52,773 bases of DNA from NCBI GenBank assembly GCA_021733985.1, contig JAIPJT010000016.1, positions 1 through 52,773 on the forward strand. The letters run 5' to 3'. A program made the translations under genes and the position numbers. Source of the stretch: Victivallales bacterium (GTDB taxonomy: Bacteria; Verrucomicrobiota; Lentisphaeria; Victivallales; GWF2-38-69). Of this stretch, positions 5,001 through 52,607 are shown in pieces. Under the pieces are notes generated by a model. That model worked only from the letters and a program-made list of their open reading frames with translations, was not told the origin of the DNA and did not search any database. Numbering within the stretch: the first letter of the stretch is position 1; each line of letters opens with the position of its first letter.

Positions 5001-5385
5001 GTGGGACAATATCCTTATTCGAGTCTATTTTATCCCTTAATTTTACTATGGATTTTTCTCTGTCTTCACCGACGTAAAACCTGACTGTTGCCAGCGACTT
5101 ATCTCTTTTACTTATGGAGTAGACATGTTCAACACCTTTGATTTGCCACAAAAGTTTTTCCAAAGGCCTTGTTACGAGCTGTTCTACTTCAGACGGGCTG
5201 TGGCCGGGAAAAGATACTGAAACATCTGCAGTCGGCACAATGATCTGGGGTTCCTCCTCCCGGGGTGTAGAAAAAATTGCTATCCCTCCTAAAAGAAGAG
5301 CTATAATAATTACTAGGCTGGATAAAGGGCCCTGCAGAAATGCGTTTACAATCGAAGATATTAAGCCTGTTGGTTTATTATTCAT
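2092..5385 (-). CDS. RND family efflux permease (AcrB-type)
   Basis: 1097 aa, normal for the family. After the first helix come the PREEEPQI and GHSPSEVEQLVTRPLE motifs of the porter domain. The twelve-helix duplicated plan is visible. The helix-4 proton relay reads GLVVDDPITN, with the Asp pair near residues 445-446. At the helix-10 position where AcrB has Lys940, this protein reads VIRNSIVLIEF, that is Arg instead of Lys. It would export hydrophobic compounds or metal-stress agents in exchange for protons, with the adaptor encoded 13 nt downstream. The start is ATG at 5385 with only a weak SD. Drug versus metal specificity cannot be read from sequence. Confidence 0.9.
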   Translation of the reverse strand: MNNKPTGLISSIVNAFLQGPLSSLVIIIALLLGGIAIFSTPREEEPQIIVPTADVSVSFPGHSPSEVEQLVTRPLEKLLWQIKGVEHVYSISKRDKSLATVRFYVGEDREKSIVKLRDKIDSNKDIVPPGVKNWIIKPVEIDDVPIVTLTVFSDQLSPFELRRLSEELKVRLEKIENISKTQIFGGRKREVKIEPDIEKMASMNIALGEIAAAVTGNNISKNAGQVISNNHTKSLLVNNLFDDANDIKKAVILNNKLRPDMLTDVGYLYKTLYGKETPISCQLIRIGDVAKVYDGPADPVSYVTLGFGPASRQYSKFRNKRMNAVTLGFSKKKGTNAVSVANNIINEANRLKSKILPDNAEMIVTRNYGKIADDKVNSLIQSMIFAIITVVVLLYFTIGWRESLVVGLAVPVSFAMALFANYLFGYTINRVTLFALILSLGLVVDDPITNVDNIQRHIKMGKENALNATLSAVQEVLPPVIMSTLAIIISFTPMFFITGMMGPYMGPMAVNVPLTVTFSTFCALTFVPWVSYKLLKNTATSNVTEHPAENSANLKAPSAWIGRFYKSILSPLLNKKRGIMFLTVVFLMLLSASALLLLKVPLKMLPYDNKDELQLIVDLPEGSSLEKTDRFTQELEQYLRTLKEVKDFETYSGINSPVDFNGLIRRYSYRKNSNNADIRINLAPKSKRSMQSHGIALRIRKKITEIAKKYGAKVKIVEVPPGPPVISTLTAEIKGDEQKRYSDLIRGAKLLQKRMHKVDPVHIVEIDDKAETPHSRLEFKIDKAKLAAHNLTAEVLYRNLRFAVNGGKLGIVHKENERNPLMINLILPLQDRSSINRLGNIWIKNRFGKSVQLSELGKFVKTNSEQPIYHKDLERVVYVTAECAGLPPGNIIIEMLLNLHDNPLPSGITANWNGEGEWHITLRVFRDLGIAFGIALIGIYLLMTVQMKNLFMPLIVMMAIPLTIIGIAPGFYLLNLFTGEKVGSFANPVFFTATAMIGMIALGGIVIRNSIVLIEFVQDSVSKGKNLKDSLIESGTVRFRPIVLTAVTTMLGAWPITFDPVFSGLAWALIFGLMSSTVFTLIVIPVVYFLITHKKYQ

Positions 5386-5478
5386 AAAAACTTTCGGTTT
5401 TAAGTAATTGTTTTTTTAATCATACACAAAATCATACAAAAATTATAGTAAATAAAAGAATACTTTACAATATTTAAA

Positions 5479-5497
5479 CAGGGGTTTTTACCCCCTG
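5479..5497 (-). terminator. GC stem-loop after the TIGR02757 gene
   Basis: CAGGGG (5479-5484) pairs with CCCCTG (5492-5497) around a 7-nt loop, just past the stop of the upstream minus-strand gene. No strong T-run follows on the minus strand, so it is a weak terminator or attenuator candidate ahead of the RND operon. Confidence 0.35.
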
Positions 5498-5560
5498 GAT
5501 GTGACAGCTTAATAATTCAGTCTTTAGATCCGGACTGCGGATTAAGCTTCGCTGCTGAAT

Positions 5561-6346
5561 TTAATATTGATCAATATGGTCATAGCAGAGTTCATTTCTT
5601 ATGCCGAAACGGCTTAATACAAAGTCATATTTTACGGGGTCACTTCTGTTCAGCCGTTTAAAATTTTCTGTAATTTCAAGTGCGGTCCTGAAATCGGCCT
5701 GCTTACGGGAGGTAAGGCCATAATTTTTAGATATTTTATATATATGTATATCAAGAGGCATGATAAGCATAGATTCAGGAATTCTACTGTTCCAGCAGCC
5801 CGGATCCACTTCGTCCCTTCTTACCATCCATCTAAAATACAGCATAAGTCTTTTGCATGCACTGCCGTGTTCAGGTGATGGAAGGAGATAAGACCTGTTT
5901 TTCTTATTATGTATATTCAGTTCGTGGCTGAAAACAGCAGCGGCATCTGAAAAACTGTTGTCTGTTTTTTTCAGGCTCTGGCAGAAAAGTTCATTCAGTG
6001 AGCCGTATTTATTAAGTGCAGTTTTTATACCGCAAAGAAAATTTGACAGGTCTTCTCCGGAAGTGAACCTGTGCCGGAAGTCGGAAAATTCCTTATAGAA
6101 GAGGCCGATTTCTTTAACTTTCATATAATTGTAAGGGGAATAGCCCATTATTTTAAGTACGGCAGTAACACTTTTAAGTATCTGTTTTACGTTTCCGTAA
6201 GCAAGAGAGGATGCAATAAGGCCTGCTATTTCTCTGTCCCTGACTTTATCAAAATGATAAACAAGTTCCAATGGGTCGGGGCTAATATATTTAAACATAT
6301 TATATTTATTATAGAGAGCTTCAAGCCTTCGAAAAGTAAGCTTCAT
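5561..6346 (-). CDS. TIGR02757 family protein (DUF2400)
   Basis: 261 aa, typical for this family. The C-terminal signature is clear: an MPLDIHIYKISKNYGL stretch, then FRTALEITENFKRL and DPVKYDFVLSRFGI. The N-terminus has DREIAGLIASSLAYGNVKQI, another family block. The fold is related to helix-hairpin-helix DNA glycosylases, but I know of no proven reaction, so no function is assigned. AGGAA precedes the ATG. It is transcribed alone, 197 nt after the flavodiiron protein gene. Confidence 0.8.
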   Translation of the reverse strand: MKLTFRRLEALYNKYNMFKYISPDPLELVYHFDKVRDREIAGLIASSLAYGNVKQILKSVTAVLKIMGYSPYNYMKVKEIGLFYKEFSDFRHRFTSGEDLSNFLCGIKTALNKYGSLNELFCQSLKKTDNSFSDAAAVFSHELNIHNKKNRSYLLPSPEHGSACKRLMLYFRWMVRRDEVDPGCWNSRIPESMLIMPLDIHIYKISKNYGLTSRKQADFRTALEITENFKRLNRSDPVKYDFVLSRFGIRNELCYDHIDQY

Positions 6347-47317: not shown

Positions 47318-47404
47318 GCCGATGTGGCGGAATTGGCAGACGCGCTGCGTTCAGGGCGCAGTTCCTGCAAAGGAGTGTGGGTTCGAGTCCCACCATCGGC
47401 ACCA
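47318..47404 (+). tRNA. tRNA-Leu (CAG), integration site of element
   Basis: Acceptor GCCGATG pairs with CATCGGC, then A and an encoded CCA. Loop TTCAGGG gives anticodon CAG at 47352-47354. There is a long variable arm, as expected for Leu. An integrase gene starts 124 nt after its 3' end on the same strand, so the 3' half of the tRNA probably served as attB. Confidence 0.95.
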
Positions 47405-47527: not shown

Positions 47528-48844
47528 ATGAGCGAGAAACCAGTTCAACTTGAAATCGGCAGTGTTTTTAAAAAGCAGACTAAAGGGAATTATTATTTCC
47601 GATACCAGATAAATGGTCAGCGAAAATGTATAAGTCTTAAAACTTCCATTAAAAAAGATGCCGTTGTTAAAGCTAAAGATATGATCCCTATATTAAAAGC
47701 AACAACTACAGAAGTAATATCTGCTCATGTAAAACATGCAAGAGACCTCATTGGCAAGCATAAAAAATTAAGACTTGTTGATGCCTGGGACATTTATTCT
47801 AAACACCCAGAAAAATCAACTCCTTCCACCGTTGCTGAAGTTTTAGGTTATCAGGCATCGTATAAAGAGTTTGTCAATTATATTGATGATAATGATAAAA
47901 TGATTCATGAAATAACGGAGGGAATAGCTTGGGAATATTCAGAACACCTTCGTAGTCTTAATATTTCTGTAGATACTCATAATAGAAAAATTGGAAGGAT
48001 CCGTAAAATCTTTGAAGTCCTTGAAGGGTATCGTGATGGTAAAAATCCTTTTGCCGTAAAGTCTGTTAGGCGAAAGACTAGAGAAGAACAGGCAAATAAA
48101 GTCAGACGTTTAAGCTTTACACATGAGCAAGAGCAACATCTACTGCAGGTTCTTGAGGACGATAAATACAAAGTTATGTATAAGCCTGAAATCCGGGTTA
48201 TTTACCATATTGGAATGTTTACCGGGCAAAGATTTAAAGACTGCGTATTACTCAAATGGTCTAATGTAGATATAAATAAAAAAAGAATCTGGGTAATGCA
48301 ATTTAAAACCGGTAAAGAAGTTTCAATACCTATAGCTCCCAAACTTTTAACGGTGTTAAAAGACGCTCAAGAATGGAAGACAGACCAGTACGTCTGCCCT
48401 AATGTTGCTATGAGATATAACAAAGTAGATAAGAATGGAAAGAATGTAGGGAACAACCTTGTTAATATCGATGCCTTAAGAGTTATCAAATGGATTGGCC
48501 TTGAGCCTTCTGTGGAAGTTCCGGGCAGAAAAAAGAAAGTTACAGTTTATGGTTTTCATTCATTACGGCATAGCTTTGTTTCGCATTGTGCAGAAACCGG
48601 ACTACCTAAAGCTGTTGTTCTTTCAATTATAGGTGCTAATTCTGAAATTATTGATAAGCATTACACTCATATAGGCGATGAAGCTCAGGAAAAAGCAATA
48701 GCTGCAATATCTGACCACTTTGAAGACTCAACAGAAGACAAAATAACCGATGGGGATAAGATTCGGAAAGCACTTACCTACATTGAAAGACTACCTTCAA
48801 AAAACTGTCAAATTCAGGATATTGAAAAGATTTTAAAAGGTTAA
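47528..48844 (+). CDS. Tyrosine recombinase (integrase)
   Basis: 438 aa. N-terminal arm-binding domain (to about 85), a SAM-like core-binding domain (about 85-190) and a catalytic domain with R235 (FTGQRFKD), K260, H344-x-x-R347 (HSLRHSF) and Y379 (KHYTHI). It would cut and join the element at the tRNA-Leu site. GAAGGG precedes the ATG, and TATAAT at 47475-47480 is a likely -10. The C-terminal 50 residues beyond the Tyr are extra. It marks the left end of the mobile region. Confidence 0.93.
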   Translation: MSEKPVQLEIGSVFKKQTKGNYYFRYQINGQRKCISLKTSIKKDAVVKAKDMIPILKATTTEVISAHVKHARDLIGKHKKLRLVDAWDIYSKHPEKSTPSTVAEVLGYQASYKEFVNYIDDNDKMIHEITEGIAWEYSEHLRSLNISVDTHNRKIGRIRKIFEVLEGYRDGKNPFAVKSVRRKTREEQANKVRRLSFTHEQEQHLLQVLEDDKYKVMYKPEIRVIYHIGMFTGQRFKDCVLLKWSNVDINKKRIWVMQFKTGKEVSIPIAPKLLTVLKDAQEWKTDQYVCPNVAMRYNKVDKNGKNVGNNLVNIDALRVIKWIGLEPSVEVPGRKKKVTVYGFHSLRHSFVSHCAETGLPKAVVLSIIGANSEIIDKHYTHIGDEAQEKAIAAISDHFEDSTEDKITDGDKIRKALTYIERLPSKNCQIQDIEKILKG

Positions 48845-49065: not shown

Positions 49066-51252
49066 ATGATGAATGAAGGAAACTTTTATAAAAAGGAAAG
49101 TGTTCTGAATTACTTGAATTCCACTTTCATGAAACAGACACTCATTCCAAATGACAAAATTCAGCCTTTAAGAGATATAATTCTTGCGGGCAAAGTAACA
49201 TTAAAATTGCTGTCAATATTAAGAGATGAAAAAGAAATGGCATTTTGTTTTGGAGTAGGGAAAAAAGAAGGGCATTACTATCATCTTAATGACAATTTCA
49301 AAATTGTTATTAAGGAGACTACTGTTTTAGTCAGCGATAATTTTAATAATCAAAAAATATTCAAACTGTTTCCGGGTGCTGTATTGTATAGGCAAAACCT
49401 TAACCAGGATTACAACTTAAACCTGCAGTGTTTTTACAGCCCATTGATCGTACTGTATGCTATCATTAAAGGAATTGCTGAAAACTTGGCATTAAAACAG
49501 TTAGTAGAGCACTTCAATATCTCAAGCAGTTTTAAATTAGATATAACCTTACCGAAAAATTCATGGCTTAAGAAGCAGTCTAATGTTTCAAATTTAAACT
49601 TTATAAATATGAATATGCAACCAGCAATTGCTATAGATGAACCCTATAAAGATTATGAGGCAGTGTATGTAAATTGTATTAATAATATTCAAAAACAATT
49701 CAATCCAAATCACATAGGTTATATTCATACAATATTTGATAAGCTCAACAGACCCATACAAAGTTTCCTATTTAATAATTATTTTACTGAACTTCCAGTA
49801 ACTTATTATGCTGGTTTTGATTCAGCCTATATTTATAGCTTGCCAGTACCAACGGAGAGTATATCGCTAGTAAATTTAGATTTGATTGAAAATGACTTTA
49901 GGAAAAATCCTGTTATTATAGCTGATTCGACAACATCTGCTCAAAATTGGAGATATCAATATGAAAATGATACCAGTTTATATTTGTCTAATAATGTTTT
50001 CATATGGACTTCATGGTTTGGTCTGGATGAAACTGCGGAGATACTGGACATAGCCCCTCTCCGTAATAGAGAGATATATTTTTATTCATTATATGCAAAT
50101 TGGTCTCCTCGGTTTAAAAAATCTGTAGATATACTCATCAAAAGATTTAAGGAAGAATTAAATTGTGAACCGCACATAGCAAAAAAAATAGATGATTACC
50201 AAATTTTGAGTAGCAATGAGTATTTAACAACCTATCAAAAAGGCCCGTCCATTCGAGTAATGAGGGATATCCTCCTTGAAGAAATAGATAATAAAAGACT
50301 TTCGGAAGAAGTATTATCCAAAGCTATAATTCAAGATGTAATCGATGAGATGAGCCTAACCTTAATTGAATCAGCCAACCCCTTAAACCTCAGCTGGTTT
50401 ATGCATTCGCTTGCCTTCTCTATATCTGAGGGGCTGAATCTTTTTAAGAACAAAAATATATGGGTTACTAAAGAAAGCGTGTGTGTAAATTTTATCTCAT
50501 GTAAAATAGCTGAATCAAATAACAAGAAAATATTATCCAGATTATTAAATTTTTATCCCACGAGTGAGAGAGAACCATTTTCTAACTTTAACTTCATTTA
50601 TACCCCTGAAAAGAACAATCTTTATGATTTTCTTAAAGACAATAACTTGATAAAAATAATTTCAAATAAAAATCAACAGGCATCTGTACTTTTCCTTGAT
50701 AATATTATTGATTTCCAGGAGTTCGATTTAAGTTATGAGTTAAAAGTAAAAGACTATTTTCAACAATTACAGGACTTAGGCTGTACAATTATTATCTCAA
50801 ATTTAAAATCAAAAGCTGTTGAGACTGAACATCACGATAAATTTAAAGCTTTATTTCATAATACAATCAGCTTATCTGAGATACCAGGTGAACAGAACAA
50901 ACTGATTCTTGATGCTGAGACTCTAGGTGTTTCTCAACCTAAACAGGTAATAGAACTTAAATTAGGTGTTAAGCCCGAAGGCTGGCATGTTATTGATTAC
51001 GAATTTTCTAAAGCTGACAAAATTAATATCGTCGAACAATGCTGGCGTTCAAACAAAAATATTGATGAAACTATGCTTGCTACTGGCATCAAAAATCGAA
51101 GAACCATAAATAACTACAGAAATAAAGTTATTGATAAATATCTGTCTTATGGCTGGGACGACCAGAAAATAGCAAAGAGGCTAAACACTACTATGAATCG
51201 GGTTAAGAAAAGGAAAGATGAAATGGATAAACGGGTAGGTAATAAAAGGTAG
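49066..51252 (+). CDS. Toprim + RepA-ATPase-like protein with eroded catalytic motifs
   Basis: 728 aa, no close family recalled. Residues 281-370 follow a toprim layout (NPVIIADSTTSAQ, then PLRNREIYFYSLYANW), but the first acid is Asp287 and the DxD position reads L342-Y-A344. Residues 430-635 follow a RepA-type RecA fold: NPLNLSWFMHSLAFSISEG sits where Walker A would (Lys becomes L442), then VLFLDN (541-546) as Walker B and LGCTIIISNL. Two helix-turn-helix segments (about 652-690 and 697-720) end the protein. It is probably a replication-linked DNA-binding protein whose enzymatic sites are lost. Domain calls come from pattern reading only. A 221-nt extremely AT-rich leader precedes it. Confidence 0.6.
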   Translation: MMNEGNFYKKESVLNYLNSTFMKQTLIPNDKIQPLRDIILAGKVTLKLLSILRDEKEMAFCFGVGKKEGHYYHLNDNFKIVIKETTVLVSDNFNNQKIFKLFPGAVLYRQNLNQDYNLNLQCFYSPLIVLYAIIKGIAENLALKQLVEHFNISSSFKLDITLPKNSWLKKQSNVSNLNFINMNMQPAIAIDEPYKDYEAVYVNCINNIQKQFNPNHIGYIHTIFDKLNRPIQSFLFNNYFTELPVTYYAGFDSAYIYSLPVPTESISLVNLDLIENDFRKNPVIIADSTTSAQNWRYQYENDTSLYLSNNVFIWTSWFGLDETAEILDIAPLRNREIYFYSLYANWSPRFKKSVDILIKRFKEELNCEPHIAKKIDDYQILSSNEYLTTYQKGPSIRVMRDILLEEIDNKRLSEEVLSKAIIQDVIDEMSLTLIESANPLNLSWFMHSLAFSISEGLNLFKNKNIWVTKESVCVNFISCKIAESNNKKILSRLLNFYPTSEREPFSNFNFIYTPEKNNLYDFLKDNNLIKIISNKNQQASVLFLDNIIDFQEFDLSYELKVKDYFQQLQDLGCTIIISNLKSKAVETEHHDKFKALFHNTISLSEIPGEQNKLILDAETLGVSQPKQVIELKLGVKPEGWHVIDYEFSKADKINIVEQCWRSNKNIDETMLATGIKNRRTINNYRNKVIDKYLSYGWDDQKIAKRLNTTMNRVKKRKDEMDKRVGNKR

Positions 51253-51277: not shown

Positions 51278-51604
51278 TTACTTACTCATTATATAATCAA
51301 CAACATCAGTATTTCTATATCTTACACTTGAGCCTACCATTCTTCTTTTGAACGGTAAAGCTCCTTCCTTTTCAAGCTTTTTAAAGTTACTGAGCCCCAG
51401 TCCCAGCATCTCCGCTGCCTCTTTCTGGTTAATGAGTTTTGGTACAACTACCGGTCTGAGTTCTCCTTTTTCGCATATGTTCCTTAGCTGTGAAATAATT
51501 TCTTTCGCTTCGGGCACTGAAACTATACCTTCATCTGTCATTATATTAAGGTATCTGGATATTAGTTTAATAGTATGAGGCTTTATCGTTAAGCAATCAT
51601 TCAT
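51278..51604 (-). CDS. AlpA/excisionase-like DNA-binding protein
   Basis: 108 aa. The C-terminal half is an HTH of the MerR/excisionase kind: LINQKEAAEMLGLGLSNFKKLEKEGALPFKRRMVGSSVRYRNTDVVDYIMSK, typical of AlpA or Xis proteins in integrative elements. The N-terminal 50 residues are an extra helical region. It is divergent from the HUH gene and convergent with the large gene. AGGAG precedes the ATG. It could control excision or repress the replication gene. Confidence 0.82.
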   Translation of the reverse strand: MNDCLTIKPHTIKLISRYLNIMTDEGIVSVPEAKEIISQLRNICEKGELRPVVVPKLINQKEAAEMLGLGLSNFKKLEKEGALPFKRRMVGSSVRYRNTDVVDYIMSK

Positions 51605-51986
51605 AATTTATTCTCCTATGCTTACTGGTTGCATAGGATGTCTGAATGACTTTTATTTTAAATAAAAGCTTCATATTGTATGACTTATTAATATCTGCAT
51701 GAATTACTTTATCCATATTATGAGGAATAAATCAGACAACAAAAGAGCAAAATAAAACTGCTGACTTCTAAGAATAGTTTAGGATGTAGCTTATTTTACC
51801 CTGGGACACAAAGTGGGATTTAGGTAATATCTTTATATATCTTTATATCTAAGCTTAGATAAACAAATCACATTCAACAACAAAGCATTCAATCTCTCTT
51901 AATCCAGCTTGCACATATCACAATACGCCCCACTCTGCGGTCATCTCATAGACCAACAATTCCATAACCAAAGAAAGGAACTAAGC
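51605..51986. promoter_or_regulatory. Control region or origin candidate
   Basis: A 382-nt gap with no gene. A 10-bp direct repeat (ATCTTTATAT at 51829-51838 and 51839-51848) runs into a perfect 16-bp palindrome TATCTAAGCTTAGATA (51846-51861), about 125 nt before the HUH start. In elements with HUH initiators the nick site often lies near the gene, so this is a candidate origin, or else an AlpA-like operator. Confidence 0.4.
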
Positions 51987-52607
51987 ATGGCTAAAGTAAC
52001 TTTTGAACCAACTTTTAAAGATAAACCTATCCTCACAGATAAGAAAAGAAAACTTGGCTGCAATATCGATATACTTAATAAAACAGAGCAGCTATTTGAG
52101 GAAGCAATTAATAAGCACTGTAAAGTGTTTTTTATGAGGATGGACTTAAGATTGCCTTCAGATGCAATAACTTCCAATGACAATAATGCAATTAAGAACT
52201 TCATGAACAGCTTTGTCAAACATTTAGACAGGAATAAACTTGACCCTAAATATTTATGGTGCAGAGAACAGTCTAGAGAGAAGCACCAGCACTATCACTC
52301 GTTCCTACTACTTGACGGTAGTAAAACAAGGAATATCCACAATCATATAAAAAAAGCTGAACAGCTATGGAGTAAGCAGTTTAACTTAGATGAACACACT
52401 AACAATGGCTTGGTAGATGATTGTACTACTGGGAGAAATGGTAAGCAGAAGAATGGAATTATAATAAACAGAAGTAAAGAAGACTTCAAATTCCAATACG
52501 ATAACGCATTTAAATGGAGCACATATTTAGCTAAGGAAAATACTAAGTCCAATATCCCTAAAAATAATAATTCATATGCCTCTTCTAAGCTTAGCAACAA
52601 AAAATAA
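51987..52607 (+). CDS. Inovirus Gp2/YfjJ-like HUH replication protein
   Basis: 206 aa from the ATG at 51987, which has GAAAGGAACT upstream; an open extension of 26 codons is rejected. Family pattern: KVFFMRMDLRLP, YLWCREQ, then HQHYHSFLLLDG with an HxH metal motif (H102, H104), and KWSTYLAKENTK with Tyr180-x-x-Lys183, which fits the catalytic Tyr of HUH endonucleases. Such proteins nick DNA and start rolling-circle replication. It would act at an origin on the element. Confidence 0.78.
   Translation: MAKVTFEPTFKDKPILTDKKRKLGCNIDILNKTEQLFEEAINKHCKVFFMRMDLRLPSDAITSNDNNAIKNFMNSFVKHLDRNKLDPKYLWCREQSREKHQHYHSFLLLDGSKTRNIHNHIKKAEQLWSKQFNLDEHTNNGLVDDCTTGRNGKQKNGIIINRSKEDFKFQYDNAFKWSTYLAKENTKSNIPKNNNSYASSKLSNKK

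Follow-up and report, generated by a model that had tools for sequence, protein, structure and literature searches.

A Toprim-RepA-like protein with a dead ATPase in a Lentisphaeria integrative element, probably a maintained non-enzymatic replication factor

The helicase slot of an integrative element in a bacterium of the class Lentisphaeria is filled by a protein in which the Toprim catalytic residues and most of the invariant ATPase residues have been replaced. The gene lies in the window, by which we mean the whole stretch of DNA that we analysed (52,773 nucleotides, the entire contig C27), and it encodes a 728-aa RepA-like protein with a Toprim-like domain and a dead ATPase (49066..51252, + strand). 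As judged from sequence comparisons, this protein descends from a Toprim-RepA (AAA_25) replicative helicase. We propose that the gene has not simply broken down and that its product probably persists as a replication factor without enzymatic activity, a condition shared by six relatives.

A tRNA-Leu (CAG) gene (47318..47404, +; ARAGORN) is the probable integration target of the element. The gene for a tyrosine integrase of 438 aa starts 124 bp downstream of it (47528..48844, +; Pfam Phage_integrase, E 1.1e-16; phrog_1, E 1.1e-41), and the RepA-like frame starts 220 bp past the integrase gene. Convergent to the RepA-like gene is that of an AlpA-like excisionase or regulator of 108 aa (51278..51604, -; Pfam HTH_17, E 2.4e-6; NCBIfam excise domain, E 8.5e-5, under the cutoff), followed by a YagK/YfjJ (inovirus Gp2-like) rolling-circle-type initiator (51987..52607, +; Pfam YagK_YfjJ_C, E 2e-14; REP_ORF2-G2P, E 1e-6), whose HxH and Tyr motifs are retained in the alignment. 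The order in the window is integrase(+), RepA-like(+), AlpA(-), YfjJ(+). The TTG start listed for YfjJ (window 51909-51986) is probably wrong; the ATG at 51987 has AAGGA before it. The contig stops at 52773, 166 bp past YfjJ, which leaves the element's right end out of view; in a search for attR, no second copy of the tRNA-Leu 3' end was found in the assembly.

As the initial annotation had stated, the gene at 49066-51252 (+) is intact over 728 codons, from an ATG and with no internal stop. In 200 shuffles of its own bases the longest open run reached 140 codons, and of the six possible frames a codon-usage score prefers the annotated one. The loss of motifs is unlikely to stem from a misassembly or a frameshift, because the homology stays in the same reading frame before and after each lost motif. 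The protein is hard to recognise directly: sequence searches against Pfam, PHROG, NCBIfam and PDB gave no match, AAA_25 did not match at E<=1 in the direct Pfam search, and searches of 84,980 genomes and of viral contigs, plasmids and phages turned up no close relative. Database matches such as DUF4939 and aroE, at E 0.01-0.1, were set aside as chance-level.

The ancestry becomes apparent through more distant relatives. A distant homologue (L002/L003, 955 aa, from G058, the MAG 'Lentisphaeria bacterium RGIG3449', which is also the nearest useful relative of the host) is 23% identical over ~330 residues (BLASTP E=3e-14) and has an intact AAA_25 (RepA ATPase) domain (E 2.6e-23). Iterated searches extended the set to ~60 relatives, from Lentisphaeria, Verrucomicrobia, Desulfovibrionaceae, Alphaproteobacteria, one Acidobacteria genome and viral contigs. 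The A3 profile, which includes the window protein, matches RSF1010 RepA in PDB (1g8y) with E 1.9e-8. In Foldseek, the model of residues 257-728 finds T7 gp4 (E 2.7e-9) and Twinkle (E 3.8e-9) as its best PDB matches over ~430 columns, and the RecA core also matches KaiC, Rad51 and DnaB; taken together, the sequence, profile and fold matches support the proposed architecture of Toprim, RepA/RecA and HTH parts. The AlphaFold models are of moderate confidence (mean pLDDT 54 for the full length and 68 for the fragment) and were built from an alignment that includes intact relatives, so they back the fold and not its details.

Two of the domains can be placed approximately, and lie where the initial annotation had put them. 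A Toprim-like domain spans residues 281-370 (49906..50175, +), as seen in alignments and as a beta-alpha-beta arrangement in the model (pLDDT mostly 60-89); its beta-alpha topology comes from the moderate-confidence model, and the Foldseek alignments to T7 gp4 and Twinkle are long enough to span this part. A RecA/RepA-like core follows at residues 420-632 (50323..50961, +; pLDDT mostly 70-88, with Foldseek and the A3 profile in agreement). The initial annotation had placed two helix-turn-helix motifs behind this core, and only the second is backed by relatives: the one at residues ~696-720 (51151..51225, +) aligns with the HTH of relatives, Pfam HTH matches occur among relatives, and the window model has helices at 699-706 and 710-727. 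The other putative HTH (~663-690) sits in an insertion that is missing from the compared relatives. No zinc-binding domain was identified in the window protein.

How much catalysis is left? In the Toprim part, motif 1 reads VIIADST (A286-D287-S288) and lacks the catalytic E. At the expected DxD site we find S-L-Y-A-N (341-345), which bears out the reading L342-Y343-A344, and there is no acidic residue between E336 and D354. All the Lentisphaeria relatives that we compared are equally devoid of Toprim catalytic residues, even those with a perfect ATPase, and the decay of the Toprim is therefore a family trait in Lentisphaeria. Outside this class the Toprim is intact: L048 matches Toprim (E=2.4e-6), L050 and L046 match Toprim_3 (E=3.2e-9 and 2.2e-8), and in the alignment all three have the Glu together with D-N-D or D-D-D.

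For the ATPase we took 23 ATPase-intact relatives as the reference for the motif columns, and in these, four residues show 100% conservation: the Lys of the P-loop, the Glu that follows beta-2, the Asp of Walker B and, in the HH motif, the second His. At these four positions the window protein has L442, K480, D545 and L580, so that only the Asp is retained. Residues 435-443 (50368..50394, +) read ESANPLNLS in place of the Walker A xxxxGxGKT, and L442, which had been proposed to stand at the Lys position, indeed pairs gap-free with the invariant Lys of the 23 intact relatives. K480 (50503..50505, +) replaces a catalytic Glu found in 23/23 of them, and N579-L580 (50800..50805, +) replaces the HH motif in the alignment. 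Also missing are the RG(S/T) loop and the column of the C-terminal Arg. Among the strongly conserved ATPase columns, the window protein keeps 4/17 and the intact relatives 11-17. The Walker B segment VLFLDN (50686..50703, +) still carries D545, an Asp present in 7/7 of the eroded proteins described below. The residues that form the fold are retained as well. Hence the view that every visible catalytic motif is eroded holds for Walker A, Glu, HH, Arg and Toprim, and fails for Walker B.

GK[ST] is absent from the entire window protein, which therefore has no overlooked intact Walker A. Homologues do have an intact Walker A, a finding that the initial annotation would have counted against itself. 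They have it at the homologous position, which shows descent from an active ATPase and does not refute the loss in the window protein.

The erosion had been described as a single event, and the relatives separate it into two: the Toprim loss is family-wide, and the ATPase loss is distinct and rarer. The same residues are thus lost in all compared Lentisphaeria relatives as far as the Toprim is concerned, and in seven proteins only for the ATPase. We envision that the family ancestor in Lentisphaeria would first have lost Toprim (primase-type) catalysis, and that one branch of the family would then have lost the ATPase.

These seven ATPase-dead proteins are the window protein, L109/L110, L111, L112, L149 and L151. 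Among 58 relatives whose P-loop can be read, 55 keep its Lys. Apart from the window protein, those without a P-loop are L111 (G078, APLSNNT), L109/L110 (G077 and G079, DSD-STT) and L151 (G111, ASPMDRT). L112 (G147) and L149 (G003) keep GKT and have lost the Glu and the HH motif, with one His remaining in L112; L109-L111 keep the Glu and have lost the P-loop and the HH motif. The hosts belong to families f1, f2, f4 and f13, in two orders. From the resemblance of the motifs we had at first suspected scattered, independent losses, and this was abandoned when the trees grouped the dead proteins: once every motif column is left out, the seven come out as one group, which has support 94/93 and appears in 93% of bootstrap trees. 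The group is recovered without L111, without L111 and L151, or without the window protein, and its support drops to 59 when three members are removed. Its branches are long, that of the window protein reaching 2.16, so this support is not decisive and long-branch attraction is possible. Given the grouping, a single origin of a relaxed state in which only some members lost the P-loop is no less likely than independent losses.

Are these genes kept, or are they on their way out? The long window branch would fit simple decay, in which the RepA-like gene drifts functionless with a frame that happens to be unbroken so far, the element being immobile or another helicase standing in. We judge this unlikely. 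The 728-codon frame is intact at only ~22-23% identity to the nearest relatives, from which we take it that the window gene has been maintained; its codon usage still matches the coding frame, and all six other dead proteins have intact frames of 590-730 codons. Purifying selection could be measured on the dead pair L109/L110, the window gene being without a close relative in the searched collections. For the pair as a whole dN/dS is 0.40, with 0.08 in the Toprim part and 0.54 in the ATPase part; the C-terminal part has no amino-acid change, and the indels are whole codons. Neutral evolution can be rejected for the whole (P=2e-4) and for the Toprim part (P=3e-5), whereas in the ATPase part the rejection is weak (P=0.03). 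In the intact pair L038/L039, dN/dS in the ATPase part is 0.13. This pattern indicates that the protein is kept in the sister pair, with the dead ATPase domain under less constraint. The fast ATPase region of L109/L110 can be cited for decay, and it fits both relaxation and a new function; the constrained Toprim and C-terminal parts argue against decay. The earlier suggestion that the gene is maintained is in this way supported by the intact frame in the window, and by selection as measured in L109/L110.

The gene neighbourhood bears on the role that the protein may have. The search for homologues beside integrase and AlpA genes brought out a conserved module in the elements of the relatives: intact and dead elements alike have the integrase, the RepA-like gene, a convergent AlpA and YfjJ in this order, and the dead proteins occupy the helicase slot of the module. 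This placement bears on another reading, in which the protein would act solely as a regulator, its HTH exerting transcriptional or copy-number control from the scaffold with no part in replication. Dead members do keep the C-terminal HTH, and the gene is convergent with that of AlpA, itself a regulator or excisionase. However, the slot that the protein fills is that of the helicase in a replication module that includes YfjJ, and the big Toprim and RecA scaffolds are kept. The strong constraint on the Toprim of L109/L110 argues against a simple HTH regulator, which would not need these scaffolds, and a purely regulatory role is in our view quite improbable.

A PIF1-family helicase lies beside YfjJ in 3/3 dead elements in which this flank is covered (L112, L149 and L151), a presence that would also suit decay with another helicase substituting. 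The same helicase accompanies 6/11 intact relatives (Fisher P=0.26) and is therefore a part of the module and not a marker of ATPase loss; it recurs across the Lentisphaeria module (L112:12989-14341, L149:12247-13722, L151:9949-11580, and in L162, L161, L158, L163, L157 and L118). The window genome assembly has no module-type PIF1, in a search that gives E below 1e-90 in the genomes with a module-type PIF1. PIF1 as a specific substitute for the dead ATPase was rejected on these grounds. A join of G077 contig C185, which carries PIF1, to C30, which carries L109, through a 57-bp end overlap was discarded, as we read the overlap as falling in an integrase-like coding repeat.

Several other features of these elements were observed. 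In three dead elements a sigma-54-activator-like AAA+ gene (Pfam Sigma54_activat/Sigma54_activ_2) lies divergent and upstream of the RepA-like gene (L149:7243-8544, -; L110:5526-6983, +; L109:5221-6084, +; genomes G003, G079 and G077, in which the last two loci belong to the sister pair), and none was detected beside intact RepA-like relatives. L118 (G155) has two YfjJ genes, 1634-2290 and 5257-5943, on either side of its PIF1 helicase, and by alignment one alone has a full HxH (HWH vs HYV). On the closed chromosome G003:C1, L024 and L027 (at ~376 kb and ~463 kb) agree in span, score and gene layout, which suggests that an intact element was recently duplicated or transposed. L041 (a Desulfovibrio sp. 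MAG) and L044 (a Halodesulfovibrio MAG) group with the Lentisphaeria family, suggesting either element transfer across phyla or contig misbinning. Finally, a 248-aa frame near a contig end (L114/L065, G119:C19:5972-6385) matches the RepA-like N-terminal part only and is either a truncated gene or a stand-alone N-terminal protein.

With moderate confidence, we take the window protein to be an ATP-independent, DNA-binding replication or maintenance factor that works beside an intact YfjJ initiator. Of the outcomes that the initial annotation had considered, a pseudo-enzyme turned structural or regulatory initiator is thus the one that we favour. Drawing on established knowledge of RepA, gp4 and HUH initiators, we propose that YfjJ would nick the element DNA and that the RepA-like protein, without using ATP, would bind this DNA through its C-terminal HTH and its non-catalytic Toprim/RecA scaffold. 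It could then serve as an origin-binding or loader/scaffold factor next to YfjJ, and unwinding would fall to another helicase, PIF1-family in several sister elements and a host helicase in the window organism. A more far-reaching proposal, tentative and rather doubtful, is that all seven proteins form one maintained family of ATP-independent initiators or loaders derived from Toprim-RepA, acting as origin scaffolds, leaving unwinding to PIF1-type or host helicases and possibly interfering, too, with intact RepA rings of rival elements.

RSF1010 RepA and T7 gp4 are ring-oligomer ATPases, and a dead subunit might co-assemble with the intact RepA of a co-resident element, either poisoning the ring or borrowing its activity. 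Dead and intact relatives do share the genomes G077, G078, G079, G003 and G111, and RepA-type ATPases form rings. We consider this very improbable: neither the window genome G000 (95.9% complete) nor the rest of G147 yielded an intact relative, and the identity between dead and intact proteins, ~20-25%, is low for co-assembly.

Replicative helicases are normally intolerant of ATPase loss. The dead set, in which the P-loop (in four lineages) or other catalytic residues are lost and Toprim and HTH apparently remain under selection, offers a natural means to separate a scaffold or loader role from unwinding. The family also displays a stepwise loss, the primase site going first and the ATPase later.

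Metazoan Twinkle is regarded as having lost its primase activity. In mitochondrial Twinkle and T7 gp4, the best PDB fold matches across both domains, a Toprim-like domain precedes the RecA domain as in the window protein; both keep a helicase ATPase that the window protein has lost. The RSF1010 RepA hexameric helicase (1g8y/1nlf/1olo) and Pfam AAA_25 (PF13481) share with it the RecA-fold core and the position of the Walker B Asp. Compared with them, the Walker A Lys, catalytic Glu, HH and C-terminal Arg are all replaced in the window protein, which in addition has an N-terminal domain, a Toprim-like domain and an HTH at its C-terminus.

In the open-access literature searched, we came upon no group of RepA-like proteins of integrative elements that lack the P-loop or are otherwise dead and yet appear to be maintained, which is weak evidence of their absence, and no description of the Lentisphaeria integrase/RepA-like/AlpA/YfjJ module. 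The nearest described elements are Pseudomonas tRNA/tmRNA genomic islands, for which the available passages name integrase, AlpA and an inovirus Gp2-like protein as core genes (PMC12595487). These three are common to both, the hosts differ, and the same passages mention no Toprim-RepA protein and report no ATPase-dead member (PMC12595487).

Also comparable with the window protein are the Toprim-AAA_25 proteins L048 (Pseudomonadota), L050 (Alphaproteobacteria) and L046 (Verrucomicrobia), which belong to integrated elements and have the same domain order and a C-terminal HTH and, unlike it, an intact Toprim E, DxD/DDD and all ATPase motifs. The intact Lentisphaeria relatives (L036, L037, L115, L158 and others) lie in the same module and share its non-catalytic Toprim, whereas their ATPase motifs are intact. 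The parts of the module and of the protein are of known kinds.
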